A program made the translations under genes and the position numbers. From NCBI RefSeq assembly GCF_030499575.1, contig NZ_JASTLC010000001.1:10130001-10194000 (forward strand): 64,000 bases of DNA, read 5' to 3'. The notes beneath the pieces were generated by a model. The model was not told where the DNA came from. It was given only the letters and a program-made list of their open reading frames with translations, and did no database searches. Each line of letters begins with the position of its first letter. Position 1 is the first letter of the stretch. This document shows positions 17,775 to 39,020 of the stretch, piece after piece. The DNA is from Streptomyces sp. DG2A-72. Lineage in GTDB: Bacteria > Actinomycetota > Actinomycetes > Streptomycetales > Streptomycetaceae.

Positions 17775-17789
17775 TGAAAATGGTTGTCG
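17775..17789. promoter_or_regulatory. Putative Zur box upstream of the first ABC importer
   Basis: The sequence TGAAAAT-G-GTTGTCG has one perfect left half and a 4/7 right half of the 7-1-7 palindrome TGAAAAT-N-ATTTTCA typical of Zur sites in Streptomyces. It is 75 bp upstream of the binding-protein start. It is the weakest of the six sites seen. Confidence 0.55.
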
Positions 17790-17863
17790 CTAGATTGCTT
17801 GTCGGCTCGCCTGCACTTATCGGGCTGCGCACCGACATCCGTACATTCCAGACCGGAGGATCC

Positions 17864-18874
17864 ATGCGCCACCCCGCCCGCCTCGGCGTCGCCCTGGCCC
17901 TCGCTTTCTCGGCTGTGGGCTGCGCGGCCTCCGAGGATGATGCGCCCTCAACGGACAAGGCCGGGGCGCAGGCGACGACCGTCACGAGTTGCGGTGAGAA
18001 GCTGTCTTTCGCCGATCAGCCCGAGCGGGCCGTCACGCTGGACCAGTCCTCCACCGAGACCCTGCTGGAGCTCGGACTCGCCGACCGGATGGCAGGCACG
18101 TCCAACCTGAAGACGAAAGTCGGCCAGGAGTACCAGGACGCTTACACGAAGGTCCCGGTGCTCAGCCCCGAGATCCTCACCGGTGAGCAATTGCGTGCAG
18201 CCACTCCGGACCTGGTTGTGTCGTCCTTCACCGACCTGTACTCAAAGGACAGGGTCGGCACGCGCGAGGAGCTGAGCGAGCTCGACCTGCCCTCCTACGT
18301 CAGCGCGGTCGACTGCCCGAAGCAGAATGGCCCCGGCAAAACCCCCTTCGACCTCCTCTTCGACGACTACAAGAACCTCGGGAAAGTGTTCGGTGTAGAG
18401 GGTCGCGCCACCAAGCTCATCGAGGAGCAGCGGGCCGTGGTCGAGAAGGCGGCCGAGGCCGGCGACGAGGTCAAGGGTGAGCCGACCGTCGTATGGCTGT
18501 ACTCCGTCTACAACGGACTGCCCTACGTCGCCGGTAAGGGCGGCATGCCCAGCGAGATGAGCAAGCTCGTGGGAGCGAAAAACGCCTTCGACGACGTCGA
18601 CGAGGACTGGCCCGAGGTCTCCTGGGAGGAGATCGCCGACCGTGACCCAGACTTCATCGTCATCGGTGATCTGCCCGAGCGAGGAGCACCGGGTGACAGT
18701 GCCGAGGAGAAGCGCGCGATGATGCGGAAGGACCCGGTGATGTCCAAACTGACGGCGGTCCGGAAGGACCGCGTCATCGAGGTGCCCGGCATCGAGATGG
18801 ACCCCTCGGTGCGCACCGTGAATACCCTGCGGCTGCTGACGGAGGGCATGAAGGACATTGGGTATGTCCGCTAG
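17864..18874 (+). CDS. ABC transporter metal/metallophore-binding lipoprotein
   Basis: This protein has 336 residues from ATG 17864, preceded by GGAGGATCC. It has a lipoprotein signal with lipobox AVGC (Cys at about residue 20). The body is a helical-backbone binding protein of the FepB/BtuF class: SFADQPERAVTLDQSSTETLLELGL style N-lobe, long linking helix (LIEEQRAVVEKAAEAG), then a C-lobe (DPDFIVIGDLPE…). It delivers a metal or metal chelate to the permease whose start overlaps its last codons. A Zur-type site precedes it, so zinc or a zincophore is the likely cargo. Confidence 0.85.
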   Translation: MRHPARLGVALALAFSAVGCAASEDDAPSTDKAGAQATTVTSCGEKLSFADQPERAVTLDQSSTETLLELGLADRMAGTSNLKTKVGQEYQDAYTKVPVLSPEILTGEQLRAATPDLVVSSFTDLYSKDRVGTREELSELDLPSYVSAVDCPKQNGPGKTPFDLLFDDYKNLGKVFGVEGRATKLIEEQRAVVEKAAEAGDEVKGEPTVVWLYSVYNGLPYVAGKGGMPSEMSKLVGAKNAFDDVDEDWPEVSWEEIADRDPDFIVIGDLPERGAPGDSAEEKRAMMRKDPVMSKLTAVRKDRVIEVPGIEMDPSVRTVNTLRLLTEGMKDIGYVR

Positions 18875-19991
18875 TCCGGCAGCCGCTCCGGGCCCGGTGG
18901 ATCTGCTGCACCCCACGGCCCGCCGGGACGGGCAGGCCGCGCCCGCCCGCACGTCGGCCGCCTCACCGAAGCCCGGCCCCTCCACGCTGTCCCAGGCGAC
19001 GCTGCTTCTCCTCGGAGTGGCGGCCCTGGTCGCCTCGGTGGCGGTGTCGGTACGGATCGGCACTGCCGACGTCGGTTACGCCGACCTGGCCAGGACGCTG
19101 GGCTCCCGTCTGGGCCTGGACGTCGAGCCGCTGCCACGGTTGCTCGACTCGCTCATCTGGGACCTGCGCCTCCCGCGCGTCCTGATGGCGGCGCTGGTCG
19201 GCGCCTCGCTCGCGGTGTGCGGCGCAGTGCTGCAGGCCGTGACACGCAACGCGCTGGCCGACCCCTACCTGCTGGGCGTCTCCTCGGGGGCGTCGACCGG
19301 CGCCGTGGCGGTGGTCGTTCTCGGCGTCGGCGCAGGCGCGATCGGGGTGACCGGCGGGGCGTTCGTCGGCGCGATGCTCTCCTTCGGTCTGCTGCTGCTC
19401 CTGCTGCGGCGCACTGCACTGGACTCGGTACGGATCGTGCTGACGGGGGTGGTCGTGTGGCAGCTGTTCACGGCGCTGACCTCGCTGATCCTCATGGCAT
19501 CCGGCGACGCCGACGCCACCCGCGCGATCACCCACTGGCTGCTCGGCTCGATGGCCCCGGCCCGCTGGGAATCGGTCGTCGTCTGCGCGGCCGTCACCCT
19601 GGCCGGCCTGGTGGTGGTCTGGCTGCACTCCACCGCCCTCGACGGATTCTCCTTCGGCGCCGACACCGCCTCATCGCTGGGCATCGACGTCCGCACGACG
19701 CGGAGGGTGCTGCTCGTGGTGACGGCAATCCTGACCTCGGTCGCCGTCGCCACCGTGGGCGCCATCGGATTCGTTGGACTGATCGTGCCGCACGGCGTCC
19801 GGTTCCTCGTCGGACCGCTGCACCGGGCGCTGCTCCCCTTCTCCGCACTGGCAGGCGCGATCTTCCTGGTGTGGACCGACGCCCTCGCCCGGATCGCCTT
19901 CGCCCCTCAGGAAGTCCCGGTTGGCGTCTTCACCGCCCTGCTCGGCGTGCCCCTGTTCTTGCTCATCCTGCGCAAACGAGGTGAGCTGTGA
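18864..19991 (+). CDS. FecCD-family ABC permease
   Basis: This permease has 375 residues from ATG 18864, overlapping the end of the binding-protein gene. It has a hydrophilic N-terminal extension of about 45 residues. About ten membrane helices follow with the FecCD signatures LRLPRVLMAALVGASLAVCG, LADPYLLGVSSGAS and GFVGLIVPHGVR. It forms the transmembrane channel of the importer with the next ATPase. The stop overlaps the ATPase start (GTGA). Confidence 0.9.
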   Translation: MSASPAAAPGPVDLLHPTARRDGQAAPARTSAASPKPGPSTLSQATLLLLGVAALVASVAVSVRIGTADVGYADLARTLGSRLGLDVEPLPRLLDSLIWDLRLPRVLMAALVGASLAVCGAVLQAVTRNALADPYLLGVSSGASTGAVAVVVLGVGAGAIGVTGGAFVGAMLSFGLLLLLLRRTALDSVRIVLTGVVVWQLFTALTSLILMASGDADATRAITHWLLGSMAPARWESVVVCAAVTLAGLVVVWLHSTALDGFSFGADTASSLGIDVRTTRRVLLVVTAILTSVAVATVGAIGFVGLIVPHGVRFLVGPLHRALLPFSALAGAIFLVWTDALARIAFAPQEVPVGVFTALLGVPLFLLILRKRGEL

Positions 19992-20791
19992 GGATCACCG
20001 TTGAACGACTGACCTGGTCGGTGTCGGACAAGACCATCGTCCATGACGTCAGCCTGGACATCGCCCCGGGCGAGACGGTCGGGCTGATCGGCCCCAACGG
20101 CTCCGGCAAGTCCTCACTGCTGCGCTGCCTCGCAGGCTTGCGTTCCCCGGCGTCCGGCACGGTCCGGTACGACGGTGAGCCGATCACGGGCTGGAGCGCC
20201 CGACGGATCGCCCAGCATGTCGCCTTCGTCGAGCAGGCCACCGACACCGACAGCGACCTGCGGATCGCCGACGTCGTCGGCCTCGGCCGCACTCCCTTCC
20301 GGGACCGATGGCGCGGCCCGGACGACACCGACCGCGCCGTCATCGCGGCCGCGCTCACCCGCGTCGGACTGACCGACCTGTCCGACCGGGCCTGGAAATC
20401 GCTCTCCGGCGGCGAGCGGCAACGCGCCCACATCGCCCGCGCCCTGGCCCAGCAGCCCTGGTCCATCCTGCTCGACGAGCCGACCAACCACCTCGACGTG
20501 AAGCATCAGTTGGAGCTCATGGAGCTGCTGGCCGGCACAGATCAGACGGTGCTGGTGGCCCTGCACGACCTGTCGCTGGCCGCACGGTACTGCGACCGGC
20601 TGCTGCTCATGGACCACGGGCGCCTGGTCGCCGCGGGGCCGCCCAAGGATGTACTGAGCCCGGACCGGCTGGCGGGAGTCTTCGAGGTCAACGCGGAGAT
20701 CGGCCTCGACAGCATGGGCAACCTCGCGGTCTCCTGCCGCGGTGTCGCGCCGCGAGCCGGCCATGGGCGGGCGGCGGCCGAGCCCGCGTAG
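19988..20791 (+). CDS. ABC importer ATPase (FepC-type)
   Basis: This is a 267-residue ATPase. Walker A is GPNGSGKSS (about residues 36-44), the signature is LSGGERQRAHIARAL (about 139-153), Walker B is ILLDEPTNHLD, and the switch His is in VALHDLSLAARY. It energises the FecCD permease encoded just upstream. It is the third gene of a binding protein-permease-ATPase operon under a Zur-type site. Confidence 0.92.
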   Translation: MRITVERLTWSVSDKTIVHDVSLDIAPGETVGLIGPNGSGKSSLLRCLAGLRSPASGTVRYDGEPITGWSARRIAQHVAFVEQATDTDSDLRIADVVGLGRTPFRDRWRGPDDTDRAVIAAALTRVGLTDLSDRAWKSLSGGERQRAHIARALAQQPWSILLDEPTNHLDVKHQLELMELLAGTDQTVLVALHDLSLAARYCDRLLLMDHGRLVAAGPPKDVLSPDRLAGVFEVNAEIGLDSMGNLAVSCRGVAPRAGHGRAAAEPA

Positions 20792-21136: not shown

Positions 21137-21904
21137 TTAGCGAGCATCGCTGCTGCGCAGAGTGAGAATGCGGACGATGCGGTCGCCGGTGTGCGCTTCG
21201 CGGCCGTGCCAGCAGCGGTAGTTGTCCAGGATGAGGATTTCTCCCTGGGCGAGCCGAAAACGCGGAAGGGTTCCTTCCATGTCGCGCACCGTTTCCTGGA
21301 AGCGGGCCAGCATGGTCTGAATGTGTTCGGCGTCCGGGTCTCGGTGCAGGGGGGCCGCGCCATCGGTGCGGCGGACGATGCGTCGGCCGGTGCGGGTGTA
21401 CTCCACATGCCTGCCGACGCGAGGTGTCGCGGGAAGCCCGCGCAGCCCGCCCCAGGCCCCGTAGAGGTCGACGTCGGCTTGGGTGAGGAATTCCCACAGA
21501 TCCGGGTCCGTGGCCGTGCAGTCGTCCACGAATCGGTACGCGTCGGCCAAGAAGGAGTCCCCGCCTGAACCCGGCGGCTGGACGCACTGAATGAGGACGT
21601 AGTCCTCGTCGGGGTCACGTCGCCGGTGCGGGACACCTCCCATGTCGACGACGATGTCGAAGCTGTCGGCGTGCAGGTGGACAGGGTTCCCGTCCTGTGA
21701 CTGCCGTTGGCGAAGGGGGAACACCTGCCGGAGCCGCTGGCCGAGAACGGCGGCAGCGGCGACGACGGGCGCGTCGGCGGTGGCTTCGAGCCCGGTCAGG
21801 ACGACGGCACCGTCGTGAGCGAGTTTGCGGCGGGCTTCTTGACCGTGCCCAATGTCGATGCGGGCAGGGACGACACCGAGGGATGGGCGCCGGGACGTGA
21901 GCAT
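21137..21904 (-). CDS. TauD/TfdA-family Fe(II)/2-oxoglutarate dioxygenase
   Basis: This is a 255-residue protein. The iron-binding H-x-D is in VHLHADSFDIV (about residues 96-106), the distal His in DNYRCWHGRE (about 228-237), and the 2-oxoglutarate-binding Arg in DRIVRILTLRS. It is most like clavaminate-synthase or gamma-butyrobetaine-type hydroxylases of small amino acids. It follows the MFS gene by 96 bp on the same strand and is probably co-transcribed with it. In this context it may hydroxylate an amino-acid unit of the metallophore; the substrate is not known. Confidence 0.8.
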   Translation of the reverse strand: MLTSRRPSLGVVPARIDIGHGQEARRKLAHDGAVVLTGLEATADAPVVAAAAVLGQRLRQVFPLRQRQSQDGNPVHLHADSFDIVVDMGGVPHRRRDPDEDYVLIQCVQPPGSGGDSFLADAYRFVDDCTATDPDLWEFLTQADVDLYGAWGGLRGLPATPRVGRHVEYTRTGRRIVRRTDGAAPLHRDPDAEHIQTMLARFQETVRDMEGTLPRFRLAQGEILILDNYRCWHGREAHTGDRIVRILTLRSSDAR

Positions 21905-22000
21905 CGGTCGCGTGTTCCTTTCGCGCGGGGGCGGGGCATGAGTCGGTTGTTGTGCGGTTGGCCGGTGAGCCGAGCGGGCCCATTGCGGTGCCGTTGACGA

Positions 22001-23266
22001 TCACTGCTGCTTCGCAGGCCCCGGTGTTTCGGCCTTGCGGGAGAAGGTGCGGGAACCGGGGGCCAACGCGGCCGCGGCCGGGGCGAGGAAGCAGATCAGT
22101 GCGCAGGTGCCGAGGACAGCCTGGGCACCGAAGGTGTCGATCGCCGGGGCGATGAGTGCGAGTCCGATCGGGGCCAGGCCATAGGAGAGCAGGAAGTCGA
22201 GGGAGGACACACGGGCCAGCTTGTCCGGCTCGACCTCACGCTGGGTGGCGGTGAACCAGGGCACGTTGAACAGTTCGAGGCCCAGGCCGGCGATGACGTA
22301 GGCGGCGACCACCACCGCGGGGTGTACGGGGAGCAGCAGGCTGAGCGGTGCGAAGCCGTAGCAGGCCAGGCTGGCGAGTGCGGTCCAGCCCTGGGCGCGG
22401 GGACGCCAGCGGGCGATGATCAGGGCTCCGGCGAGGGCGCCCGCGACGTAACCGGTGGTTGCCGACGCCAGGACCGCCTCGGTGTCGTAGCGGTCCCGGC
22501 TGACCAGCGGCAGCACAACGCTGGTCGCGGAATAGCCGGTTGCTATGACCGCGGTCAGCGCGGCAAGGCCGGCTAGGAACCAGGGGTGTCTGCGGGCCTC
22601 CCGGACACCCTCGGCGAACTCGGTGATGAACGACGTACGTTCGCGGGCGACAGCAGCGGTAGCGGTGCCTGCCGGAGGGATCAGCGCCGCGGCGAGCCAG
22701 AGCAGTCCCGTGCCCAGCAACAGTGCGCCCGCGTCGAGGACGGCCGCGAGCACGGCTATGAGGCCCGGTGCGACCAGGGTGGTGATCCGTACTGCCAGGG
22801 TCATCGCCGCGTTGGCCTGCTGCCGCCGCGGTGCGTCGACGACCTCGGCGGCGAGTGCCTGAAACGCCGGCCGGCAGGCGCCCTGCCCGGCTCCGACCAC
22901 GGTGGCCGCGACGGCCATGAGCACTGCCGACCGCCCGAGTCCTACGGCGATCAGGGGAGTTGCGACTGCGGCGGCCAGGCCGGCCCAGAGGACGACGCTC
23001 CTGCGGGAGTAGCGGTCGGCCAGGACTCCACTGATGGGAACCGCAGCGAGAAATCCGCCCGTGCGCGCGGCCAGGACGAGTCCGAGGCCCCCGGGTGTGA
23101 TCGAGCGGTCGAGCACCGCGAGCCCGAGGACGAACGGCAGTGCCCAGGTTGCCAGTCCCGAGGCGGTGGTGCCCGACCACAGCCGCAGGAAGGCCGCTTC
23201 CCGCAGGACGGACCGCCGGCGGCGCGGATCGGTTTCGGACACGGTCGCCTCGGGCGAGCTCGTCAC
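22001..23266 (-). CDS. MFS exporter of the zinc cluster
   Basis: This exporter has 421 residues from GTG 23266, chosen because GAGGAG lies upstream; an upstream ATG at 23338 is too near the putative Zur box. About twelve membrane helices are seen, with the MFS loop GVLADRYSRRSVVLWAGL between helices 2 and 3. It is similar in type to EntS-like siderophore exporters. A Zur-type site lies about 100 bp upstream of the start. It likely exports the metallophore. Confidence 0.82.
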   Translation of the reverse strand: MTSSPEATVSETDPRRRRSVLREAAFLRLWSGTTASGLATWALPFVLGLAVLDRSITPGGLGLVLAARTGGFLAAVPISGVLADRYSRRSVVLWAGLAAAVATPLIAVGLGRSAVLMAVAATVVGAGQGACRPAFQALAAEVVDAPRRQQANAAMTLAVRITTLVAPGLIAVLAAVLDAGALLLGTGLLWLAAALIPPAGTATAAVARERTSFITEFAEGVREARRHPWFLAGLAALTAVIATGYSATSVVLPLVSRDRYDTEAVLASATTGYVAGALAGALIIARWRPRAQGWTALASLACYGFAPLSLLLPVHPAVVVAAYVIAGLGLELFNVPWFTATQREVEPDKLARVSSLDFLLSYGLAPIGLALIAPAIDTFGAQAVLGTCALICFLAPAAAALAPGSRTFSRKAETPGPAKQQ

Positions 23267-23362
23267 TGGGCGATGCTCCTCTGGCTGTCCCGGGCGAAGC
23301 CGCCCTCGGCGCGGACCCGGGATCCTTATTGCGATCAACTTGCAATTACTCAGACACTCTAT

Positions 23363-23377
23363 TGAAAATCGTTGCCA
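23363..23377. promoter_or_regulatory. Putative Zur box of the MFS/dioxygenase operon
   Basis: TGAAAAT-C-GTTGCCA has a perfect left half and a partial right half (TT..CA kept). It is about 97 bp upstream of the chosen MFS start, between that gene and the regulator gene. Confidence 0.55.
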
Positions 23378-23547: not shown

Positions 23548-24024
23548 TCAATCGGCCGCTCGCCGGTAGCCACAGGTGCGGCACAGACCGACAAGATCGA
23601 GCGTGTGCTGTACCTCGACGAATCCGTGAGCCTGCTGGACGGTCGCCAGCCAGGTCTCGAACGATTCGGAGGAGATCGGCACGCTGTGGCCGCACTGGCG
23701 GCAGAGCAGGTAGTGCTGGTGCTCGGCGGCATCCCGACGCCGGTAGGACCGCTCTCCTCTGTCGTCCCGCACGGCGTCGACCAGATCGAGGCGTTCCAGG
23801 GTGGCGAGGGTCCGGTACACGGTGCTCAGGCTGACTCGATTGCCCCGGCCGTGTAGGAACCGGTGAAGCTCCTGGGCGCTGGCAAACACGTCTAATTCTT
23901 CGAGCGCCTTGAGCACGGCTTCCCGCTGCCGAGTGATGCGAGGGGGGTTTCCGCCATCAAGGCGGTCAGTGCTTTGCCCCGCATGGAGTTGACGTGACCG
24001 GGTGGCGACCTGCTCCTTGAGCAT
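23548..24024 (-). CDS. Fur/Zur-family metalloregulator
   Basis: This is a 158-residue regulator. The winged-helix domain covers about residues 25-100 (RITRQREAVLKALEEL, ASAQELHRFLHGRGNRVSLS, TVYRTLATLERLDLVD). The dimer/metal domain has HQHYLLCRQCGHSVPI and LVGLCRTCGYRRA, giving the two C-x2-C pairs of a structural Zn site. The length and Cys pattern fit Zur. A site like the other Zur boxes lies 125 bp upstream, so autoregulation is likely. It may be a second Zur, specific to this cluster. Confidence 0.85.
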   Translation of the reverse strand: MLKEQVATRSRQLHAGQSTDRLDGGNPPRITRQREAVLKALEELDVFASAQELHRFLHGRGNRVSLSTVYRTLATLERLDLVDAVRDDRGERSYRRRDAAEHQHYLLCRQCGHSVPISSESFETWLATVQQAHGFVEVQHTLDLVGLCRTCGYRRAAD

Positions 24025-24163: not shown

Positions 24164-24165
24164 TA

Positions 24166-24688: not shown

Positions 24689-24689
24689 T

Positions 24690-24704
24690 TGATTTTCATT
24701 TTCA
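24690..24704. promoter_or_regulatory. Putative Zur box of the methyltransferase-metK-mtn operon
   Basis: TGATTTT-C-ATTTTCA has a perfect right half and an AT-rich left half; a further TTTTCA precedes it. It is 41 bp upstream of the ATG of the first gene of the operon, a good place for repression. Confidence 0.6.
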
Positions 24705-24745: not shown

Positions 24746-25639
24746 ATGGAGCCGTGCGAGCTGGCCGCCGGATTAGCAGACGGGGCCGAGAGCTTCGACC
24801 GATTGTTCAGCGCGTTGTGGTCGTCGATTGGTGCCGCGACCGTCAAGGCTGCACGACTGCGCCCCGGTGTGCACGTGTTCGACGCATGCTGCGGCTCGGG
24901 GGCGTCCGCGATCCTGGCCGCGGAGGAGATCGGCCCGCACGGCGTGATTGACGCAGTAGACCTCGCGGAGCCCTTGCTTGAGCGTGGCCGGGCCCAGGCC
25001 ACGGTCCGCGGTCTCGGCAACGTGCGGTTCGTGCACGGCGACGTCCTCGACTGGCCTGCACCGCACGGTGGTTACGACGCCGTGGTGTGTTCGCTCGGGA
25101 TCTTCTCCTTCCCCGACATGGCGGCAGGAACAGAGCGACTGCTGAGGCTCCTGCGGCCTGGCGGCCGGCTGGCCGCGACCATCTGGGCCCGGGGCGCGCT
25201 CGAACCGCTGCCTGAGCTGATCCATCGGGCCGTCCTACCAGAACGGCCGTACCTTGCCGACGCCCCACGGCCGGTCAACCCGCTCGAACCCATCGGCACG
25301 CCTGAGTCATTCCGGGACTGGCTCGCTGCCCGCTCGCTGTCATCCGTCGGCGTGCAGTGCCTCCCGCTCGCTCTGCCCGGCGACCCGGACCTGCTGTGGT
25401 CTCTGGTGCTCGGCACCGGGTTCAGGGGCCTGCTCGGCGGCTTGCCCGTCGCCGCGGTGGAACGCGTCCGCCGGCGGTTCACGGCGGGCCTGCTCGCCGA
25501 GGGCCGGGACGCGATCGACTTCTCCGCGCTCGTAGGCACGGGGACTCTCCGCCGCGTCGCTCTGCCCCGCCGCCCCGGAGGCGCCCGCCCCTTGCTGACC
25601 ACCGGCGAGCCCATCAGATCGGCACCACAAATCGGTTGA
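24746..25639 (+). CDS. Class I SAM-dependent methyltransferase-fold enzyme
   Basis: This protein has 297 residues from ATG 24746, preceded by CAGGAG. The SAM-binding motif I is [18 protein letters not shown] (about residues 44-61), motif II is [18 protein letters not shown], and motif IV/V regions are [16 protein letters not shown] and [16 protein letters not shown]. It resembles UbiE-type small-molecule methyltransferases. It heads an operon that continues with SAM synthetase and MTA-salvage genes. That suggests it may use SAM as an aminocarboxypropyl donor (releasing MTA) rather than as a methyl donor; this is inference from context. Confidence 0.8.
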
Positions 25640-25652
25640 CGTCAGGAGATTC

Positions 25653-26876
25653 ATGTCTCGCCGGCTGTTCACCTCGGAGTCCGTGACCGAGGGCCACTCC
25701 GACAAGATCGCTGACCAGGTCAGCGACACGATTCTCGACGCGCTGCTCCAGGAGGACCCAAGGTCCCGGGTCGCCGTGGAGACCTTGATCACCACGGGCC
25801 TGGTGCACGTGGCCGGCGAGGTGACGACCAAGGCGTATGCGCCGATCGCCACGCTCGTTCGGAACAAGATCCTTGAGATCGGCTACGACTCCTCGACGAA
25901 GGGCTTCGATGGCGCCTCCTGTGGGGTGTCGGTGTCCATTGGTGCCCAGTCCGCTGACATCGCGCAGGGTGTTGACACCGCGTACGAGCGTCGGGTCGGC
26001 GGTGCCGCCCAGAGTGCGGAGGCTGATGATCTGGACACGCAGGGCGCGGGCGACCAGGGCTTGATGTTCGGCTACGCGTGCGACGAGACGCCCGAGTTGA
26101 TGCCGCTGCCGATCCACTTGGCGCACCGGCTCTCGCGCCGCCTGTCCGAAGTGCGGAAGAACGGCACCCTCCCCTACCTGCGTCCGGACGGCAAGACCCA
26201 GGTCACCATCGAGTACGACGGCGACAAGGCCGTCCGCCTCGACACGGTGGTGGTCTCCTCACAGCACGCGAGCGACATCGACCTGGAGTCCCTGCTTGCC
26301 CCCGACATCCGCGAGTTCGTCGTGGAGGCGGAGCTGAAGGCGCTCCTGGACGAGGGCATCAAGCTCGACACCGAGGGCTACCGGCTCCTGGTCAACCCCA
26401 CCGGCCGGTTCGAGACCGGTGGCCCGATGGGCGACGCGGGCCTGACAGGCCGGAAGATCATCATCGACACCTACGGCGGCATGGCCAGGCACGGCGGTGG
26501 CGCCTTCTCCGGCAAGGACCCGTCCAAGGTGGACCGTTCGGCCGCCTACGCAATGCGCTGGGTGGCGAAGAACGTGGTGGCGGCCGGTCTCGCCTCGCGC
26601 TGCGAGGTGCAGGTCGCGTACGCGATCGGCAAGGCCGAGCCGGTCGGCCTGTTCGTGGAGACCTTCGGCACGGCCACGGTGGACGCCGAGAAGATCGAGA
26701 AGGGTATCAGCGAGGTCTTCGACCTCCGCCCCGCCGCGATCATCCGAGACCTGGACCTGCTGCGCCCGATCTACGCCCAGACCGCGGCATACGGCCACTT
26801 CGGCCGTGAGATCCCCGACTTCACCTGGGAGCGCACCGACCGTGTGGACGCGCTGCCGGCGGCCGCAGGCATATGA
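25653..26876 (+). CDS. metK: S-adenosylmethionine synthetase
   Basis: This is a 407-residue enzyme making SAM from methionine and ATP. Signature regions are [20 protein letters not shown] (usual GHPDK, here GHSDK), [20 protein letters not shown], and [19 protein letters not shown]. It is full length. It starts 13 bp after the methyltransferase gene and overlaps mtnA by ATGA. It is probably a cluster-specific second copy, supplying SAM to the enzymes encoded around it under the same Zur-type control. Confidence 0.95.
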
Positions 26877-28602: not shown

Positions 28603-28606
28603 TCTC

Positions 28607-30743: not shown

Positions 30744-31703
30744 TCACACCGGAACGGGAAGGGCGGGCTCGGTACAGAGGGTGTTCGGGAAGCTGAGGGT
30801 CCGGTAGACCGCGACGTTTCCCGCCAGCTCCGTGCACGCCTGCGCAGCCGCGGTGGCGCGGTGTGTGTACGCGGGGTCCGCGGTGTCCAGCAGCACGCCC
30901 AGAGTCGTGCCACTGTGGCCCACCGCGACGCCCAGGCCGCCGACCTCGCGGCAGATGTCGCGCATGGGCTCCAGAGACCGCTTGTACCGGAGCGCCTGGT
31001 TCATCAGTGCACTCCGGGTGGCGACCCTGCCCACCTCGGCGAGGTCACGGGAGCGTATGGCGACGGTGAGCCGGTCCAGCAGGCGCGCGTACTGCTGCCG
31101 GTCGGCGGCCGTGAACGGCTTGGGGATGCGGTTGAAGTCGACCGTGTCGACGGCTCCGCCCTCGTCGATTCCGATCACGGCCATGGCCGGCAGGGATCCG
31201 AGGACCGCGCGCAGGCGCACGGTGCGGTGGTGGAAGGCGACGATGCCCCGGTAGAGCACGCCATCGGTCGGCTCGATCCGCGCCAGCAACCGCTCGATCC
31301 GGGAGGCGGGCATCCTGAGGTGCAGAGCCTGCCCCACCGCCCGAGCGGTCGCGACCAGATCGGCCGAGGAACTGGCCAGCCCCTTGCCTTCCGGGATCAC
31401 GCTGTTGACGGTCAGCAAGCCTCCCGTCGTCTGCTCCGCCTCCTCAACGATCATTCGAGCCAGTCGCAGTGCCTTCTGCTTCTGGGCCGGCCGGACCACC
31501 AGATCGGTCGAGCCGGGATCCGGCCGGAAGGTCGCCCTCGTCCATCGGGCGACGGGCAACGTGACCAGGAAGTCCCCGTCCCTCTCGGGAAGTACCCCCT
31601 GAAGCAGTTCGCCGAATGTCCCGAAGGCGGTCCCCACTCCCGTTCCGGACGGCCCCTGTCGCAGCGGACGATGTCGCGGTCCGACCTTCTGGGTCAGCTT
31701 CAC
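30744..31703 (-). CDS. GHMP-family kinase, PduX-like
   Basis: This protein has 319 residues from GTG 31703, chosen because GAGAGGAG lies 5 bp upstream and longer forms would run into the Zur-type site. The N-terminal GTAFGTFGELLQGVLP resembles the nucleotide loop of PduX (L-threonine kinase). The GHMP motif is PEGKGLASSSADLVA. The C-terminal GVAVGHSGTTLGVLLD is the third motif. It likely phosphorylates a hydroxy amino acid such as Thr, Ser or homoserine. That would activate it for the PLP enzyme encoded nearby. It is convergent with the mtn operon and divergent from the second biosynthetic operon. Confidence 0.75.
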   Translation of the reverse strand: MKLTQKVGPRHRPLRQGPSGTGVGTAFGTFGELLQGVLPERDGDFLVTLPVARWTRATFRPDPGSTDLVVRPAQKQKALRLARMIVEEAEQTTGGLLTVNSVIPEGKGLASSSADLVATARAVGQALHLRMPASRIERLLARIEPTDGVLYRGIVAFHHRTVRLRAVLGSLPAMAVIGIDEGGAVDTVDFNRIPKPFTAADRQQYARLLDRLTVAIRSRDLAEVGRVATRSALMNQALRYKRSLEPMRDICREVGGLGVAVGHSGTTLGVLLDTADPAYTHRATAAAQACTELAGNVAVYRTLSFPNTLCTEPALPVPV

Positions 31704-31772
31704 GGAACTCCTCTCATGGCTTCCGGCCCGTCGACTGGACCGCGAATGTGTCGGCAGGGCAGCAGATGAAAG

Positions 31773-31787
31773 TGACAATCGTTTTTA
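31773..31787. promoter_or_regulatory. Putative Zur box of the GHMP-kinase gene
   Basis: TGACAAT-C-GTTTTTA matches the 7-1-7 pattern with 6/7 and 5/7. It lies 70 bp upstream of the kinase start on the minus strand. Confidence 0.6.
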
Positions 31788-31906: not shown

Positions 31907-31921
31907 TGACAATCATTTTCA
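31907..31921. promoter_or_regulatory. Strong putative Zur box over a -35 element
   Basis: TGACAAT-C-ATTTTCA is the best site in the window: one mismatch in the left half and a perfect right half. It overlaps TTGACA (31906-31911), a consensus -35 hexamer, 70 bp upstream of the second biosynthetic operon. This is a natural repressor position. Confidence 0.7.
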
Positions 31922-31979: not shown

Positions 31980-32762
31980 ATGGGTGAGCAGAACCACGGC
32001 CGTACCACGACCATTTCGGGCATTCCCATCAGCACGGACCTCTGGGCGCTCCACGAGAGCCTTCCGCACACGCTTCCGGCGGACGAGATCCTCGCCGTGA
32101 ACAAGCCCAAGCCGGAGCTGCACACGCACCGGATGTACACGTACAACGGCTGGTCGTTCGAGCTGCCGCCCGGTGTCTTCATGCCGGGTGAGACGAGTCG
32201 GATGGTCCATGACCGGCTGCTCGACGGCACCATCCCGGTGGCCGGCAGGTCGTACGCGGCGATGGGCGTCGGTCTCGGCGTCGAGGCAGTGGCCGCCGGC
32301 ATCAGGGAAGCCCGTGAGATCTACGCGATCGACGTTGACCCGGACAGTGTGAAGGCGGTTGCCGATCACTACGCCCGTATCGTCGGTGAGCGTCCGGGCA
32401 CAGCCTTCCACCCGCTCGTGTCCGACCTGTTCGACGAACTCCCGGATTCCGCCAAGGTCGACGTCATCACCTTCAATCCACCGGCCGTTCGCGAGACGGT
32501 CAGCGACGACCCGACCGTGGTGCGGAACGTCTGCGTGGGGAAAGACATCGCGGTGCGGTTCTTCGACCAGATCGTGCAGCGCGATCTGCTCGCGGACGAC
32601 GGCGAGGTCTACCTGATCGTCTCCAACACCGCGGACATCCGGGACATCATCAAGTACGCCATCGAGTCCGGATTCGCTCCCGAGGTGATCCACCGGCAGA
32701 CCTGGGATACGGACAACGTGCAGACGTACCTGTTCAGGATGCGCCGGAACATGGCCGCCTGA
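31980..32762 (+). CDS. SAM-dependent enzyme with an NPPA motif
   Basis: This protein has 260 residues from ATG 31980, after GAGGAG. The SAM-binding region is AAMGVGLGVEAVAAGIREAR then IYAIDVDPDSVKAVADHY (about residues 85-125). The catalytic-site motif is DVITFNPPAVRE (about 160-171), like the NPP[Y/F] of N-methyltransferases such as PrmC. It could N-methylate, or use SAM to add an aminocarboxypropyl group. It is the first gene of a run of seven co-directional genes under the best Zur-type site. Confidence 0.8.
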   Translation: MGEQNHGRTTTISGIPISTDLWALHESLPHTLPADEILAVNKPKPELHTHRMYTYNGWSFELPPGVFMPGETSRMVHDRLLDGTIPVAGRSYAAMGVGLGVEAVAAGIREAREIYAIDVDPDSVKAVADHYARIVGERPGTAFHPLVSDLFDELPDSAKVDVITFNPPAVRETVSDDPTVVRNVCVGKDIAVRFFDQIVQRDLLADDGEVYLIVSNTADIRDIIKYAIESGFAPEVIHRQTWDTDNVQTYLFRMRRNMAA

Positions 32763-32775
32763 CGTGGGGACGGTA

Positions 32776-33810
32776 ATGCAGGAGCACATAGCGGAAGCGG
32801 TCAAGAGGCCCGATCTCATATCCCTGCAGCCGGACTTGGTCTGCCTGCGGTTCGAGACGATGAAGATCTATTCGGCTCTGGGGGCCGTTCGCCACCTCCT
32901 GGAGTCCGGTGCCGTCAAACCCGGCGACACCCTCATCGACAGCTCAAGCGGAATCTACGCACAGGCGCTGGCGCTCGCCTGCCACCGCTATGGCATGAAG
33001 TGCCACATCGTGGGATCCACCACGGTGGACCGGACCCTTCGCGTGCAACTGGAAATTCTCGGCGTCACCCTGGAGCAGGTTCAGCCCTCGAAGAACCTGC
33101 GCCTCGACCAGGAACTGAGAGTCCGCCGAATCGCCGAGATCCTCGAGGCAAACCCGTCGTACCACTGGATGCAGCAATACCACGACAGCATCCACTACTA
33201 CGGCTACCGCGACGTGGCCGAAGTGATCGACCAAGAGGTGCCTGCCGGACCGCTGGCCCTGGTGGGCGGGGTGGGTTCGGGTGCTTCGACCGGCGCGATC
33301 GGCACGTATCTGCGCGAGGCGGGCCGGGAGGTGTCCCTGGTCGGCGTGCAGCCTTTCGGCAGCGTCACCTTCGGCTCCGAGCACGTATCGGACCCGGACA
33401 TGATCATTGCCGGGATCGGCAGCGCCATTGAATTCAAGAACGTCCGGCACGAGCTGTACGACAGGATTCACTGGGTCAACTTCGACTGCGCGCTCTCGGG
33501 CGCAGTCGAACTCCTTCGGGCCAGCGGCATATTCGCCGGCCTGTCGACCGGTGCGGCTTACCTGACCACCCAGTGGGAGCGCCGCAGGGACGACTCCCGC
33601 ACCTACGTTTTCATCGCCGCCGACACAGGCCACCGCTATGTCGAAAGCGCCTACGCCAGGCACGCGGAAGCCCAGGACATCGACAGCCTCAAGCCGCATG
33701 AGATCACCTCTCTCGAAGAGCTGAGACATCCCTGGTCCACGACCTCCTGGCCCGATCTCCGTGCCTCGGGTGACAGCTGGCAGCCTCCGGTAACTCAGCT
33801 GCGGCGGTGA
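32776..33810 (+). CDS. PLP-dependent enzyme of the cysteine-synthase fold
   Basis: This protein has 344 residues from ATG 32776 (a GTG at 32764 is possible). The PLP Lys is probably K30 in VCLRFETMKIYSALGA. The substrate loop, TSGNTG in cysteine synthases, reads DSSSGIYAQALALA, so the usual Asn is missing. The phosphate-binding loop is GGVGSGASTGAIGTYL. Such variants (e.g. SbnA) do beta-replacement on O-phosphoserine with an amino nucleophile. With the GHMP kinase nearby it may join a phosphorylated amino acid to an amine, making a diamino acid unit. The substrate is not shown. Confidence 0.8.
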   Translation: MQEHIAEAVKRPDLISLQPDLVCLRFETMKIYSALGAVRHLLESGAVKPGDTLIDSSSGIYAQALALACHRYGMKCHIVGSTTVDRTLRVQLEILGVTLEQVQPSKNLRLDQELRVRRIAEILEANPSYHWMQQYHDSIHYYGYRDVAEVIDQEVPAGPLALVGGVGSGASTGAIGTYLREAGREVSLVGVQPFGSVTFGSEHVSDPDMIIAGIGSAIEFKNVRHELYDRIHWVNFDCALSGAVELLRASGIFAGLSTGAAYLTTQWERRRDDSRTYVFIAADTGHRYVESAYARHAEAQDIDSLKPHEITSLEELRHPWSTTSWPDLRASGDSWQPPVTQLRR

Positions 33811-33864
33811 GACGTTGGCCGAACTTTCATGACAGCACCGACAACTCCGACGAGAGAACTGGAA

Positions 33865-34710
33865 ATGTCACACCCCAAGCCCCAGACAGTCGCCGAACTG
33901 ACCGACGCCGTGCTGTCGGGAGCCTACGGCCCCGATCCCAAGGATCTGTCCGTCACCAGTGCGTTCTGGCTTTACCACACCACCCGGCTGGCCGGGAGTC
34001 AGGTCACCTACCACAATCACTACCTCGTGCTCCGCGTCGGCCAGTCCTTCGGTGCCTGTTCCTTCGAGGCCGGTGAACTCGCCCCGGACTTCTGCGAGAA
34101 CGCCTCCGGCTACCCGCTGGACACGCTGTTGCGCAACGAGTCGGACCCGGTCCGTATCGCCGCCCTCGACGCCTACCTCGCCCAGGTGCGGCCGCACCGG
34201 GAGGCCGCGGACGCCGAGCCGGTCACGCTGCCCGACGGCACTCCGGAGGTACGTGCACGGGCCCGTGACGCCGCCATCGCCGGGCTTCTCGACATCGAGC
34301 CGGGCGCCAAGGTGGCGCTGATCGGAGTGGTGAATCCGCTGGTCGCGGCGATACGCGACCGGGGCGGCGTCTGCCTGCCCTGCGATCTGAACCTGCGCAC
34401 CACCCAGTGGGGTGAGCAGGTCACCGACGACATGACCGAGGTGCTCAAGGAGGCCGATGCCGTCGTGGCCACCGGCATGACCCTGAGCAACGGCACGTTC
34501 GACCTCATCCTCGAGCACTGCCGGGAACAGGGCGTGCCGCTGGTCGTCTACGCGCAGACCGGCAGCGCCGTCGCCCGCGCGTTCCTGCCCGCCGGGGTCA
34601 CCGCTCTGAACGCTGAGCCCTTCCCCTTCTCGCAGTTCAGCGCCGACCCGACGCTCATGTACCGCTACCGGGCCGACAAGCCGGTGCTCGCGGATGAGGA
34701 GGGTGCGTGA
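33865..34710 (+). CDS. DUF364-type Rossmann protein (putative metal-chelate enzyme)
   Basis: This protein has 281 residues from ATG 33865; ATG 33829 would add 12 residues. The N-terminal half (DLSVTSAFWLYHTTRLAG… YLVLRVGQSFGACSFEAGEL) and the C-terminal Rossmann half (VALIGVVNPLVAAIRDRGG, ADAVVATGMTLSNGTFDLIL, VVYAQTGSAVARAFLPAGV) match the DUF4213/DUF364 family. That family is annotated as a possible heavy-metal chelation domain. Its reaction is not known. It is sandwiched between the PLP enzyme and an MFS gene, overlapping the latter by GTGA. Confidence 0.7.
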   Translation: MSHPKPQTVAELTDAVLSGAYGPDPKDLSVTSAFWLYHTTRLAGSQVTYHNHYLVLRVGQSFGACSFEAGELAPDFCENASGYPLDTLLRNESDPVRIAALDAYLAQVRPHREAADAEPVTLPDGTPEVRARARDAAIAGLLDIEPGAKVALIGVVNPLVAAIRDRGGVCLPCDLNLRTTQWGEQVTDDMTEVLKEADAVVATGMTLSNGTFDLILEHCREQGVPLVVYAQTGSAVARAFLPAGVTALNAEPFPFSQFSADPTLMYRYRADKPVLADEEGA

Positions 34711-35990
34711 GCATCGACGCCAAGGACTCCGCGACGGACCGCGAGAGCGCCGAGGCGGAGGAGCCGCTGCCGAGCGATCTGCGGATGGCCCGTACCCTGT
34801 GGCCGGTCCTGCTGGCCTCCGCGGTCGGCCTGCTGCCGTTCACCATCTTCAGCACGTACCTGGTGCCGATCTCCGACGAGGCCGGCAGCAGCGTCGCCGC
34901 GATGGGCGGACTGCGTGGACTGGGTGGCCTGGCGGCCCTGTTGGTGGGCACCGCCCTCGCTCCCTTCATCGACCGGGTGCGCAAGGAATGGGCCGCTGCG
35001 GGCGGGCTCGCCGCTCTGGGCGTATCGGCGGCGCTGGGCGCGAGCGGCGACTTCATCCTGCTGGCGGTGTTCTGCCTGCTGGTCGGCGCCAGTACGTCCG
35101 TACTGAACCCGGCCCTCACCGCGGCGGCCGCTGACCGCTTCGGCACCGGCAAGGCGGCCGGCCGGGCGGCGACCCTGGTCACCGCGACGCAGTCGATGAC
35201 CGCGATGCTCGCGGCACCGGTCGTGGCCCTGCCCGCCCTGCTCTGGGGCTGGGAGGGAGACCTCGTCGCCGTGACCGCGGCCTCACTCCTGCTCGCCGTG
35301 GTGTTCTACGTGCGGGGCAGGAACAAGGCCGCCGAGGACACCGCGAAAGAGGAGCGCCTGAGCTACCTCGCGTCGTTCAAGGCCCTGGGAGCCATGCCCG
35401 CAGTGGTGCCCCTGCTCCTCATCTCACTGCTCCGCACCGCGGTGTTCATGGGCTACCTCGCCTACCTGGCGGCCTACTACGACGAGCGCTTCGAACTCGA
35501 CCCCGCGCTCTTCGCGTTCGTCTGGACCTTGAGCGGCGCGTCATTCTTCGTGAGCAACCTCCTCACGGGGCGGATCACGAACGCCGCCGAGCCCCGGATC
35601 AGCACCGAGCGCATGCTGGTCATCGGTCTGGTCGCGGCACTGGCTTCCGTTGTGGGCTTCTACTTCACGCACTGGCTTCCGCTCGCCCTCGTGCTGACGT
35701 CGCTGCACGCGGCCAGTCACGCGGTGGTGGCCGCGTGCGCCGTCAGCCTCCTCGTCCGGCGGTGCGGCTCGCTGCGTGGCTCGGCCTTGAGCCTCAACGC
35801 CGCGGGGCAGAGCCTCGGAGTGTTCGTGGGTGCGGCCCTGGGAGGCGCCGGCCTCGGTCTGGCCGGCTACCCGGGCGTCGCCATCGTCTTCGGTGCCCTC
35901 GTCGTCCTGGCGCTGGGGGCCGCCGTCCTGGTGCATCGCGCGGGCCAGGCGGACGAGGAAGAGACAAGCGGCGCGCCTGCTTCCGCGTAG
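34707..35990 (+). CDS. MFS transporter of the zinc cluster
   Basis: This is a 427-residue protein with twelve probable membrane helices and the MFS loop pattern GTALAPFIDRVRKEWAAAGG. The cytoplasmic N-terminus is acidic (about 28 residues). Starting inside the stop of the DUF364 gene, it is translationally coupled to it. It is likely the exporter of the metallophore made by the operon, or of an intermediate. It is distinct from the other MFS protein at 22-23 kb. Confidence 0.82.
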   Translation: MSIDAKDSATDRESAEAEEPLPSDLRMARTLWPVLLASAVGLLPFTIFSTYLVPISDEAGSSVAAMGGLRGLGGLAALLVGTALAPFIDRVRKEWAAAGGLAALGVSAALGASGDFILLAVFCLLVGASTSVLNPALTAAAADRFGTGKAAGRAATLVTATQSMTAMLAAPVVALPALLWGWEGDLVAVTAASLLLAVVFYVRGRNKAAEDTAKEERLSYLASFKALGAMPAVVPLLLISLLRTAVFMGYLAYLAAYYDERFELDPALFAFVWTLSGASFFVSNLLTGRITNAAEPRISTERMLVIGLVAALASVVGFYFTHWLPLALVLTSLHAASHAVVAACAVSLLVRRCGSLRGSALSLNAAGQSLGVFVGAALGGAGLGLAGYPGVAIVFGALVVLALGAAVLVHRAGQADEEETSGAPASA

Positions 35991-36079
35991 CCGGCGCAGT
36001 ACTGGCGTCCGCCCGGGGTGACGGGCGGACGCCACACGCCTGATGAGTACGTTCCGTTCAACCTGGAAGGCCGAGTTCT

Positions 36080-37219
36080 ATGTCACCGCCCGCGACTTCC
36101 GCGCCATCGGCGAGCAGCGGCGCCGATACATCAGCCGACGCGGCACCCCTCGAACCCGCAACGGGCGCGAAGGGCCGGCTCGCCTCCCGTAAGGGCCTGG
36201 TGCTGGCCTGCGCCGTTCTGCTCGTCGTCCTCCTCGCCTCGGTTGTGGTGGCCATCGGTCTGGGGGCCGCCGTGATCACGCCGGGGGAGACCGCACGGTA
36301 TTTGTGGGCGGCTGTCAGCGGCGGCCGCATCGCGGCGGACGAGGTGACCACGTACCAGATCATCTGGCAGATCCGTACGCCACGGGTGCTGCTCGCGGCG
36401 CTCGTGGGGGCCGGGCTGAGCGCGATCGGCGTGGCCATCCAGGCCATGGTGCGCAACGCGCTCGCCGACCCCTTCGTGCTGGGCGTCTCCTCGGGTGCGT
36501 CCGTCGGAGCTGTCGGCGTCACGGTCACCGGGGGACTGGCGGCGCTGGGCATCTACGCGGTGTCGGCCGGTGCCTTCATCGGGGCCCTGATCGCGTCGCT
36601 CCTGGTGTACGTCGCCTCCTCCAGCCGGGGCGCGCTCTCCCCGCTGCGTCTCGTCCTGACGGGCGTGGCCATGTCGCTCGGCTTCCAAGCGGTGATGAGC
36701 CTGATCATCTACTTCGCGCCGGACAGCGAGGCGACCAGCATGGTCCTGTACTGGACGATGGGCAGCTTCGGCGCCGCGACCTGGGGTGCCCTTCCGGTCG
36801 TATCCGTGGTCGTCATTCTCGGCCTGGTGGTGCTGTACCGGTACGGCCGGGCGCTGGACGTCTTGGCGCTCGGAGACGAGACCGCCGCGAGCCTGGGCAT
36901 CAGCCCCGATCGGCACCGCAAGGCCCTGCTTGTCCTGGCCTCGCTCGTGACGGGGGTGATGGTCGCCGTCAGCGGCGCCATCGCCTTCGTCGGACTGGTC
37001 ATGCCCCACCTGGTGCGCATGGTCGTCGGCGCCACCCATGCCCGCGTGCTGGCCGTGGCGCCACTGGCCGGAGCGATCTTCATGGTGTGGGTCGACCTGG
37101 TGTCCAGGACGCTGGTGGCACCGCGCGAGCTGCCCCTGGGCGTCATCACCGCACTCGTCGGGGTGCCGGTGTTCATCACCTTGATGCGCCGCAAGGGCTA
37201 CATGTTCGGAGGCCGCTGA
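36080..37219 (+). CDS. FecCD-family ABC permease (second importer)
   Basis: This permease has 379 residues from ATG 36080. A polar Ala/Pro-rich N-terminal tail of about 40 residues is followed by about ten helices with IRTPRVLLAALVGAGLSAIG, LADPFVLGVSSGAS and AIAFVGLVMPHLVRMVVG. It ends one base before the ATPase gene. It is a paralogue of the permease at 18.9-20.0 kb. Confidence 0.9.
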   Translation: MSPPATSAPSASSGADTSADAAPLEPATGAKGRLASRKGLVLACAVLLVVLLASVVVAIGLGAAVITPGETARYLWAAVSGGRIAADEVTTYQIIWQIRTPRVLLAALVGAGLSAIGVAIQAMVRNALADPFVLGVSSGASVGAVGVTVTGGLAALGIYAVSAGAFIGALIASLLVYVASSSRGALSPLRLVLTGVAMSLGFQAVMSLIIYFAPDSEATSMVLYWTMGSFGAATWGALPVVSVVVILGLVVLYRYGRALDVLALGDETAASLGISPDRHRKALLVLASLVTGVMVAVSGAIAFVGLVMPHLVRMVVGATHARVLAVAPLAGAIFMVWVDLVSRTLVAPRELPLGVITALVGVPVFITLMRRKGYMFGGR

Positions 37220-37220
37220 G

Positions 37221-37994
37221 ATGGACCTCAGACTTGACGGGCTCTCGGTGGTGACCGACGGCAAGAGCCTGGTGCGTGACCTGTCCCTGGACGTGAAGAG
37301 CGGCCAGGTCGTGGGCCTGGTCGGTCCGAACGGCAGCGGCAAGTCCACCGCCCTCAGGTGCGTGTACCGCGCACTGCGCCCCAGCTCCGGCACCGTCTGG
37401 GTGGGCGAGGGCGAACTCTCCCGCCTGACGATGCGCCGCTCCGCGCAGGTCATCGCGGCCATGACCCAGGACGGCGCCGTCGACCTCGACTTCACGGTCG
37501 AAGAGGTCATCGCACTCGGACGCGCCCCCCACCTTCAGGGCAACCAGGCGCTCAGCCGCCGGGAGTGGGAGCTGTGCGAACGGGCGATGGACCAACTCGA
37601 CATCCGCCACCTCGCCCGACGCGGAGTCCTGACACTCTCGGGCGGGGAACGCCAGCGTGTCCTGCTGGCCCGGGCACTCGTCCAGGAGCCGAAAATCCTG
37701 GTACTCGACGAGCCGACCAACCACCTCGACGTACGCCACCAGGTCGAACTGCTCTCGCTCCTGCGCGGCTCGGGACTCACCGTCCTCGTCGTGCTGCACG
37801 ACCTCAACCTCGCCGCGGCCGCCTGCGACCGCCTCGGCGTGCTCTGCGAAGGCCGCCTCGTCACCACCGGCACGCCCGAGGACGTACTCACCACGGAACT
37901 CGTCGACGAGGTGTTCGGGGTCAAGGCCAGCATCGTGTCCCACCCGCTGACGGGTGACCCGCAGTTGTTGTATTCGCTCACCTCCTCCCTGTGA
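37221..37994 (+). CDS. ABC importer ATPase (second importer)
   Basis: This is a 257-residue ATPase. Walker A is GPNGSGKSTALRCV, the signature LSGGERQRVLLARALVQ, Walker B KILVLDEPTNHLD, and the switch His is in VVLHDLNLAAA. It pairs with the FecCD permease before it and the binding protein after it. The substrate is probably the zinc metallophore complex. Confidence 0.92.
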   Translation: MDLRLDGLSVVTDGKSLVRDLSLDVKSGQVVGLVGPNGSGKSTALRCVYRALRPSSGTVWVGEGELSRLTMRRSAQVIAAMTQDGAVDLDFTVEEVIALGRAPHLQGNQALSRREWELCERAMDQLDIRHLARRGVLTLSGGERQRVLLARALVQEPKILVLDEPTNHLDVRHQVELLSLLRGSGLTVLVVLHDLNLAAAACDRLGVLCEGRLVTTGTPEDVLTTELVDEVFGVKASIVSHPLTGDPQLLYSLTSSL

Positions 37995-38010
37995 AAGGCA
38001 CCACCACGTC

Positions 38011-39020
38011 ATGACCATGACTCGATCTCCCGGCTCGGTGCGGCAGCACACCATCCTCGGCTCCGCGCTCGCGGCTGCGCTGCTGCTCAGCGGCTGCGGC
38101 GCCGAGGTGGAATCGGATGCCAAGGCGTCCGAGAAGGTCACCGTCAACAGGTGCGGTGAGCCGGTCGAATACACGATCCCGAAGCGCGCCGTGGCGTACG
38201 AAGGCGGAAGCGCCGACAAGCTGTTCAGCCTCGGCCTGGCCGACCATGTGTATGGCTACGTGATGCCCCCGGCGAACCCGTCGGTGGAGGAGTCGCCGTG
38301 GGCGAGCGACTACGCCAAGGTGAAGATGCTCAGCGACGATCTCCTCAACAAGGAACTCGTCGTCGAGGCCAAGTCCGATTTCGTCGTGGCCGGTTGGAAT
38401 TCCGGCTTCAAGGATGAGCGGGGCATCACCCCGGAGATCCTGGACAAGCTTGGGATCCAGAGCTTCATGCACAGCGAGAGCTGCTTCAACTATCCCAAGT
38501 ACCCGGAGAAGCACACGCCGTTCGAGGCCCTTTACACCGACCTCGATCGACTCGGCAAGATCTTCCAGGTCGAGGACAAGGCGGATGAGGTCGTCGGTGG
38601 GCTGAAGAAGCGGGTGGAGGCCGTCAAGGCGAAGGCGCCCAAGGGCGATCCGGTCCCGGTCTTCCTCTACGACTCGGGCACCGACCAGCCCTTCACCGCG
38701 GGCAACCAGGTCCCGCCCAACGACATCATCAAAACCGCCGGCGGCAAGAACATCTTCGACGGCCTCGAGGAGCGATGGACCCAGGTGAACTGGGAGGCAA
38801 TCGCCAAAGCAGAGCCGGAAGTCATCATCATCCTCGACTACGGCGACCTGCCCGCCAAGAAGAAGATCGACTTCCTGAAGAAGTCCCCCACACGAAGGAG
38901 TTGCCCGCCGTCAGGAAGAACAACTTCTTCATCCTCAACTACAACGAGGGCATCAGCGGGCCGCGCAACATCGACGGCCTGGAGAAGTTCGCGAAGTACC
39001 TACGCGAGCTCCAGAGCTGA
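38011..39020 (+). pseudogene. Metallophore-binding lipoprotein with one frameshift near its C-terminus
   Basis: The ATG at 38011 starts a lipoprotein signal with lipobox LSGC (Cys at about residue 30). The binding-protein body follows (RAVAYEGGSADKLFSLGL, FEALYTDLDRLGKIFQV, NDIIKTAGGKNIFDGLEERW). At about 38890 the frame breaks after KKKIDFLKKSP, in a run of five C. One more C would restore HTKELPAVRKNNFFILNYNE to the stop at 39020. The gene is otherwise complete, so a sequencing indel is as likely as a real mutation. It completes the second importer. Confidence 0.85.

Follow-up and report, generated by a model that had tools for sequence, protein, structure and literature searches.

A putative Zur-repressed, NRPS-independent metallophore cluster with an accessory methylthioadenosine-salvage operon in Streptomyces sp. 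DG2A-72

The gene cluster

Streptomyces sp. DG2A-72 carries, between 17.8 and 39.0 kb of the 64,000-nucleotide stretch of DNA analysed here (the window; positions 10130001-10194000 of the 10.58-Mb genome), a run of genes that we read, on balance, as a metallophore cluster repressed by Zur and independent of non-ribosomal peptide synthetases (NRPS), the metallophore probably being a zincophore. The run begins with a substrate-binding protein, a FecCD-type permease and an ATPase (PBP1-FecCD1-ATPase1), followed on the reverse strand by a TauD-type 2-oxoglutarate (2OG) dioxygenase, a transporter of the major facilitator superfamily (MFS1) and a Fur-family regulator. Next comes MT1-metK-mtnABDCP, an operon for the supply of S-adenosylmethionine (SAM) and the salvage of methylthioadenosine (MTA), in which MT1 is a SAM-dependent enzyme. 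A reverse-strand GHMP-family kinase gene then precedes MT2-PALP-DUF364-MFS2-FecCD2-ATPase2-PBP2, where MT2 is a second SAM-dependent enzyme and PALP an SbnA-like pyridoxal-phosphate (PLP) enzyme.

Gene families were assigned by Pfam and NCBIfam profile searches, the Pfam scan covering 30 selected open reading frames (ORFs) of the window between 12.9 and 45.3 kb. All the gene types listed in an earlier note on this DNA, the exporters and importers among them, lie where that note had placed them, and mtnP, mtnA, mtnB, mtnC and mtnD are all present. Its claim of an NRPS-free gene set agrees with the scan, in which the 30 ORFs gave no Pfam match to NRPS and none to the IucA/IucC, nicotianamine-synthase or opine-dehydrogenase families.

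Predicted Zur-type regulation

Among solved structures the regulator matches best the Zur proteins 3MWM and 7VO0 (~113 bits each) and FurB 2O03 (110 bits), with a Fur (55.5 bits) and 3EYY (45.5 bits) lower down; that the chains 3MWM, 7VO0, 2O03 and 3EYY are Zur or Nur proteins is in part our assumption. A search of the window for palindromes with at most 3 mismatches to TGAAAATSATTTTCA found five places (Table 1), one fewer than the six palindromes counted earlier. The site before MT2 was matched on both strands, which brings the pattern matches to six. Only 0.09 matches are expected by chance, and none of 100 shuffles gave six. A further half-site-like stretch, seen by eye, lies at ~24152, upstream of the regulator gene.

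The sites are conserved in the 64 related loci described below, where 1.22 Mb of sequence holds 92 of them and each of 3 block shuffles holds none. At least one is found at 58 of the 64 loci, and at 53 a site falls in the interval -40..400 nt before a cluster gene, as do 72 of the 92 sites. Sites precede MT2 at 31/64 loci, MFS1 at 30/43, FecCD2 at 26/43 and MT1 at 4/4 (three close homologues and one of 42%); the internal genes PALP (0/62) and DUF364 (0/64) have none upstream. Three control patterns matched 1, 2 and 1 sites respectively. The fourth control, a rotated pattern, matched 37 sites in 31 loci, many of them preceding the same genes; as it shares the ATGAT/ATCAT register of the Zur-type palindromes it was taken, with the overlap assumed, to hit the same sites, and was not counted as an independent control. 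A Zur-family regulator, Zur-type boxes in the window and the conservation of these boxes across the loci thus support, at the level of sequence, the Zur-type control that had been proposed.

Table 1. Genes and Zur-type sites between 17.8 and 39.0 kb of the window
Feature	Position	Strand	Basis
Zur-type palindrome before PBP1	17775..17789	+	3 mismatches
Substrate-binding protein PBP1	17864..18874	+	PF01497 109 bits; start read by eye, ORF from 17771
FecCD-type permease 1	18858..19991	+	PF01032 295 bits
ABC ATPase 1	19988..20791	+	PF00005 125 bits
TauD-type 2OG dioxygenase	21137..21904	-	PF02668 67 bits
MFS transporter 1 (MFS1)	22001..23338	-	PF07690 105 bits
Zur-type palindrome before MFS1	23363..23377	-	3 mismatches
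Zur-family regulator	23548..24024	-	Pfam; solved-structure matches
Zur-type palindrome 49 nt before MT1	24690..24704	+	3 mismatches
MT1, class I SAM-dependent enzyme	24746..25639	+	PF13649, UbiE-type profiles
metK	25653..26876	+	TIGR01034, 542.7 bits, passes NCBIfam cut-off
mtnA	26873..27940	+	TIGR00512, 382.7 bits, passes NCBIfam cut-off
mtnB	27916..28602	+	TIGR03328, 171.7 bits, passes NCBIfam cut-off
mtnD	28604..29191	+	PF03079 (ARD) 97.2 vs cut-off 27; start estimated, ORF from 28448
mtnC	29188..29922	+	TIGR01691, 217.5 bits, passes cut-off; start estimated, ORF from 28957
mtnP	29913..30737	+	NF005876, 437.9 bits, passes cut-off; start estimated, ORF from 29538
GHMP-family kinase	30744..31778	-	PF00288 + PF08544; start uncertain, probably nearer 31.70 kb
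Zur-type palindrome by kinase start	31773..31787	-	3 mismatches
Zur-type palindrome before MT2	31907..31921	+	1 mismatch
MT2, HemK2/PrmC-fold SAM-dependent enzyme	31980..32762	+	NCBIfam profiles, fold matches
SbnA-like PLP enzyme (PALP)	32764..33810	+	PF00291; top NCBIfam model TIGR03945 at 129 bits, below cut-off 350
DUF364 protein	33829..34710	+	
MFS transporter 2 (MFS2)	34707..35990	+	PF07690
FecCD-type permease 2	36080..37219	+	PF01032 296 bits
ABC ATPase 2	37221..37994	+	PF00005
Substrate-binding protein PBP2	37954..39020	+	PF01497; frameshifted near 38.88 kb in this assembly

The frameshift in PBP2 is either a true loss or a sequencing error. A tRNA-Thr call by ARAGORN inside MT1 (25185-25272, reverse strand) is probably spurious.

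The core cluster across actinomycetes

Relatives were collected with a two-row MT2 alignment and a scan with two peptide patterns, which gave 64 loci (numbered with the prefix L), two of them from S. altiplanensis; flanks extended to at most 10 kb, and 18 of the loci are cut by contig ends. Their genera include Streptomyces, Kitasatospora, Nocardiopsis, Pseudonocardia, Prauserella, Saccharopolyspora and Actinosynnema. MT2, being the query, is present at 64/64 by construction; with it the loci carry DUF364 (64), PALP (62), an MFS gene (60), FecCD (46) and the kinase (37). Among 396 genomes of the phylum, the present one included, there was one other strong MT2 match (61%, genome G334), and 76 others gave weak matches only. 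Searches of the open-licence literature returned no paper recognisable, by title and abstract opening, as an account of the gene set.

Two gene orders are frequent: that of the window, MT2-PALP-DUF364-MFS2, and MT2-DUF364-kinase-PALP, in which MFS1 stands apart. At some loci of the former order additional sequence separates PALP and DUF364; in L051 it holds a gene for a PhyH-type 2OG oxygenase (L051:11664-12620, 111 bits), and the matching stretch appears, by eye, partly decayed in L047, L048 and L054. The window proteins FecCD2, ATPase2, PBP2, metK and the mtn set are 84-96% identical to those of L047 and L051, higher than MT2, PALP, DUF364 and MFS2 (61-78%), so that a joint transfer of importer and MTA operon is possible; MT1 stands at 73-77%.

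The same genome holds a second cluster (G000:C1:8648200-8668199; L208:6930-18600) with a Zur-type site of 2 mismatches. It encodes an ATP-grasp protein, DUF364, an SbnA-like PALP, an MFS transporter, a class I methyltransferase, an oligopeptide/nickel-type importer and a 313-aa protein that matches nothing in Pfam or NCBIfam; DUF364 and PALP are likewise paired in L207, L209 and L213.

An accessory operon for SAM supply and MTA salvage

MT1-metK-mtnABDCP is complete in the window, in L047 and L051 among the 64 loci, and in L152 outside them; for most genes the identity values of L152 equal those of L051, and the two may be one strain. Partial operons are seen in L048 (mtnD-mtnC-mtnP remnants and a low-coverage MT1 match) and L053 (an mtnA fragment). 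A Zur-type site precedes MT1 by 49 nt in the window and by 48 nt in L047, L051 and L052. The operon proposed in the earlier note is thus present, with a Zur-type site of its own, but it is accessory and does not belong to the core.

The operon looks dedicated, because further copies of metK, mtnA and mtnP exist elsewhere in the genome: over cut-off there are 3 metK, 2 mtnA (the other being 44% identical to the window copy) and 2 mtnP, with mtnD found once, in the window. Over the genus, mtnD passes its cut-off in 48 of 246 genomes. Zur-type sites are lacking at the two remaining metK loci and the second mtnA locus of this genome, as they are at five other mtnABDCP loci taken from other genomes. 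In 391 further genomes of the genus MT1 itself has one close homologue (77%), in the genome that holds L152, and ten more genomes pass the threshold at 39-45%. In L112 and L121, from other genomes of the genus Streptomyces, MT1 homologues of ~45% lie beside a Fur-family gene 52-53% identical to the window regulator.

Release of MTA would be better tied to MT1 than to MT2, since the mtn operon is accessory and MT1 is its first gene, while MT2 is present at all loci. MT2 as the sole source of MTA is weakened as a candidate, the mtn operon being missing at most MT2 loci, although some copies may lie beyond contig ends or flanks. ArsL transfers an aminocarboxypropyl group from SAM to arsenic, with MTA as the by-product. 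Two of the five similar mtnABDCP operons from other genomes, L156 and L157, adjoin an ArsL-like gene (NF040542, 490.8 bits against a cut-off of 450 in L156; the L157 protein is 90% identical to it), so that an mtn operon beside a presumed aminocarboxypropyl donor pathway has at least one parallel. These two stretches (L156:856-11735 and L157:8420-19615) also hold PHO4 and ATP-grasp genes, and an ArsM-like gene was scored in L156.

The core enzymes

In MT2 the place of the motif-I acid is Ala in 45 of 46 sequences. Motif IV reads TFNPPAV, with F165-N166-P167 and A169 kept in 46/46 and T164 invariant too. Azetidine-2-carboxylate synthases (AzeJ/VioH) carry, in the passage of PMC11794875 that gives their motifs, FY, PFNxxGN and RxxYYxxC; on reading the MT2 and MT1 translations neither PFNxxGN nor RxxYYxxC was seen. 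MT2 as such a synthase was rejected on these motifs, given TFNPPAV at motif IV. AzeJ, VioH and nicotianamine synthase are not among the best 50 fold matches listed for MT2, which excludes nothing.

SbnA stands second and third among the best solved matches of PALP, and R132 and Y152 of SbnA (5D84) align with R119 and Y139 of PALP, each kept in 32/32. A kinase gene next to a PALP gene is also seen in Cupriavidus, Streptomyces sp. ITFR-16, S. clavifer and Tsukamurella plasmids. We prefer to read the core as a candidate for SbnA-like O-phosphoamino-acid chemistry together with DUF364.

Proposed route

We propose the following route. Under zinc shortage, Zur would come off its palindromes, and the units that start with PBP1, MFS1, MT1, the kinase and MT2 would be switched on. 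The GHMP kinase would produce an O-phospho amino acid of the serine, threonine or homoserine type, whose phosphate the SbnA-like PALP would swap for the amine of a second amino acid, yielding a chelator backbone of the N-(2-amino-2-carboxyethyl) type; since no SbnB-like enzyme is present, this backbone would remain intact. MT2 and DUF364 would finish the chelator, the MFS proteins would export it, and PBP-FecCD-ATPase would bring its metal-loaded form back in. MT1, where present (the window and a few relatives), would attach a further SAM-derived group, most likely aminocarboxypropyl, and release MTA, with metK remaking SAM and mtnABDCP recycling the MTA. The proposal draws on gene content, linkage, site conservation and copy number, from which we infer the chemical steps, which metal is bound, how the genes are regulated in the cell and which enzyme, MT1, gives rise to MTA.

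More speculatively, the cluster may represent a new class of zincophore, made by O-phosphoamino-acid/SbnA-like condensation and transfer of the SAM aminocarboxypropyl group by a methyltransferase-fold enzyme, with metK and mtnABDCP under Zur. The enzyme would be MT1, possibly also the motif-altered MT2, and is not recognisably related to nicotianamine synthase. We hold this wider reading only tentatively and think it rather doubtful; if it is true, zinc starvation turns on the synthesis of the chelator and the recycling of its by-product together.

Several observations weigh against the proposed route. At 11 of the 64 loci there is no Zur-type site or none near a cluster gene, the kinase is not detected at 27/64, and three related clusters (L161, L201, L214) lack MT2. 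The complete mtn operon occurs at only 2/64 relatives, and L052 retains MT1 and an mtnP fragment with neither metK nor the mtn set, so MTA recycling would not be essential. PALP has Gly at the place of SbnA S185. By profile MT1 resembles an ordinary UbiE/ArsM-type methyltransferase, and the nearest folds of MT2 are N-methyltransferases, including a carbamoyl N-methyltransferase (9L4Q), so that plain methylation by MT2 is quite possible.

MT1 and MT2 may both be ordinary methyltransferases that make a methylated chelator, with metK and mtn a general sulfur-salvage set captured by a Zur promoter and perhaps sparing methionine under zinc stress. The profile matches of MT1 and the HemK2/PrmC/RsmC-type folds nearest to MT2 speak for this, as does the logic of zinc sparing; mtnD being unique to the window in this genome, the operon is also the sole full route from MTA to methionine seen there. 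We nevertheless consider it unlikely. Wherever the operon is complete with MT1 (window, L047, L051, L152) it adjoins this cluster, and it starts with MT1, a gene so rare elsewhere in the genus; enzymes that produce S-adenosylhomocysteine need no mtn genes; and MT2, judged by what we take to be the usual methyltransferase motifs, has neither the motif-I acid nor the aromatic residue of NPPY/F. The choice between methyl and aminocarboxypropyl transfer would thus turn on linkage and motif arguments only. That the product is instead a zinc-regulated antimetabolite or signal and not a re-imported chelator we regard as very unlikely: relatives of the window PALP do occur in clusters where ATP-grasp and MFS genes are present and the stretch displayed contains no FecCD importer, but an exporter and a FecCD-type importer with Zur-type sites recur alongside the core.

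It is improbable, too, that the cluster is of the aminopolycarboxylate type that makes ethylenediaminedisuccinic acid (EDDS) in Amycolatopsis japonicum and ethylenediaminesuccinic acid hydroxyarginine (EDHA) in Streptomyces scabiei. O-Phosphoserine is the precursor of EDDS, and an SbnA-like PALP is common to both, which favours this identity, as does the Zur control of EDDS production described in passages of PMC9252823 and PMC6103462. The EDDS/EDHA passages of PMC9252823, PMC6103462, PMC10702961, PMC8914351, PMC11888242 and PMC10486106 leave the enzyme families of the aes genes unnamed. The locus compared was L211, which encodes a PALP, an SbnB-like ornithine-cyclodeaminase (OCD) protein, a PLP decarboxylase and a MATE transporter, all below NCBIfam equivalog cut-offs; it is probably of the aminopolycarboxylate type, because its gene set fits the MATE listed for such a cluster in Nocardia in a passage of PMC10920908. 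By tblastn the OCD of L211 has no match in the window or the 64 loci, and its decarboxylase none in the window and one weak match in the 64 loci (27%, L098). The two PALPs are 28% identical, and a tree of 37 rows, which leaves out L062 (a 51-residue fragment with a huge branch) and L164, separates the 24 PALPs of the window type from the remaining 13 at 100/100. The 64 loci include none from Amycolatopsis, S. scabiei or Corynebacterium, the coverage of those genomes by the two-pattern scan being unchecked. Gene content and the PALP tree thus disfavour an EDDS/EDHA identity and suggest a type separate from the presumed aminopolycarboxylate one; the separation is not final, because it leans on L211.

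Comparison with known systems

To our knowledge, few NRPS-independent zincophores are known. The core, found from Streptomyces to Nocardiopsis and the Pseudonocardiaceae, could yield a biodegradable chelator, and a Zur-controlled MTA-salvage operon would directly indicate which SAM chemistry the pathway uses. Coelibactin is made by an NRPS in S. coelicolor, unlike the product expected here, as no NRPS is among the scanned ORFs of the window; its cluster is likewise a Zur-controlled Streptomyces metallophore cluster, as a passage of PMC6103462 has it. EDDS and EDHA are NRPS-free too, EDDS shares the Zur control, and both would share the SbnA-like PALP if L211 belongs with them. L211 has an SbnB-like OCD, a PLP decarboxylase and MATE, whereas the window has MT2, DUF364, the GHMP kinase, MFS and FecCD, and the two PALPs fall in separate clades.

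The SbnA/SbnB route to diaminopropionate in staphyloferrin B biosynthesis is alike in its SbnA-related PALP, with the R132 and Y152 places kept, but in the window no SbnB-like gene was seen, PALP scores 129 bits against the 350-bit SbnA equivalog cut-off and has Gly for S185, and a GHMP kinase lies nearby. Staphylopine, pseudopaline and nicotianamine share with the proposed route the use of the SAM aminocarboxypropyl group with release of MTA, and export and import, yet the SAM enzymes of the window give no nicotianamine-synthase Pfam match and no opine dehydrogenase is among the scanned ORFs. The arsinothricin-type loci L156 and L157 have a related mtnABDCP (58-78% identical) beside their ArsL-like gene; theirs, however, is a setting of radical SAM and arsenic-type genes, in which neither a PALP/DUF364 core nor a Zur-type site was detected. 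Overall, the cluster appears to encode a little-studied set of enzymes, with transporters, by which a small metal-binding molecule would be made, exported and taken up again.

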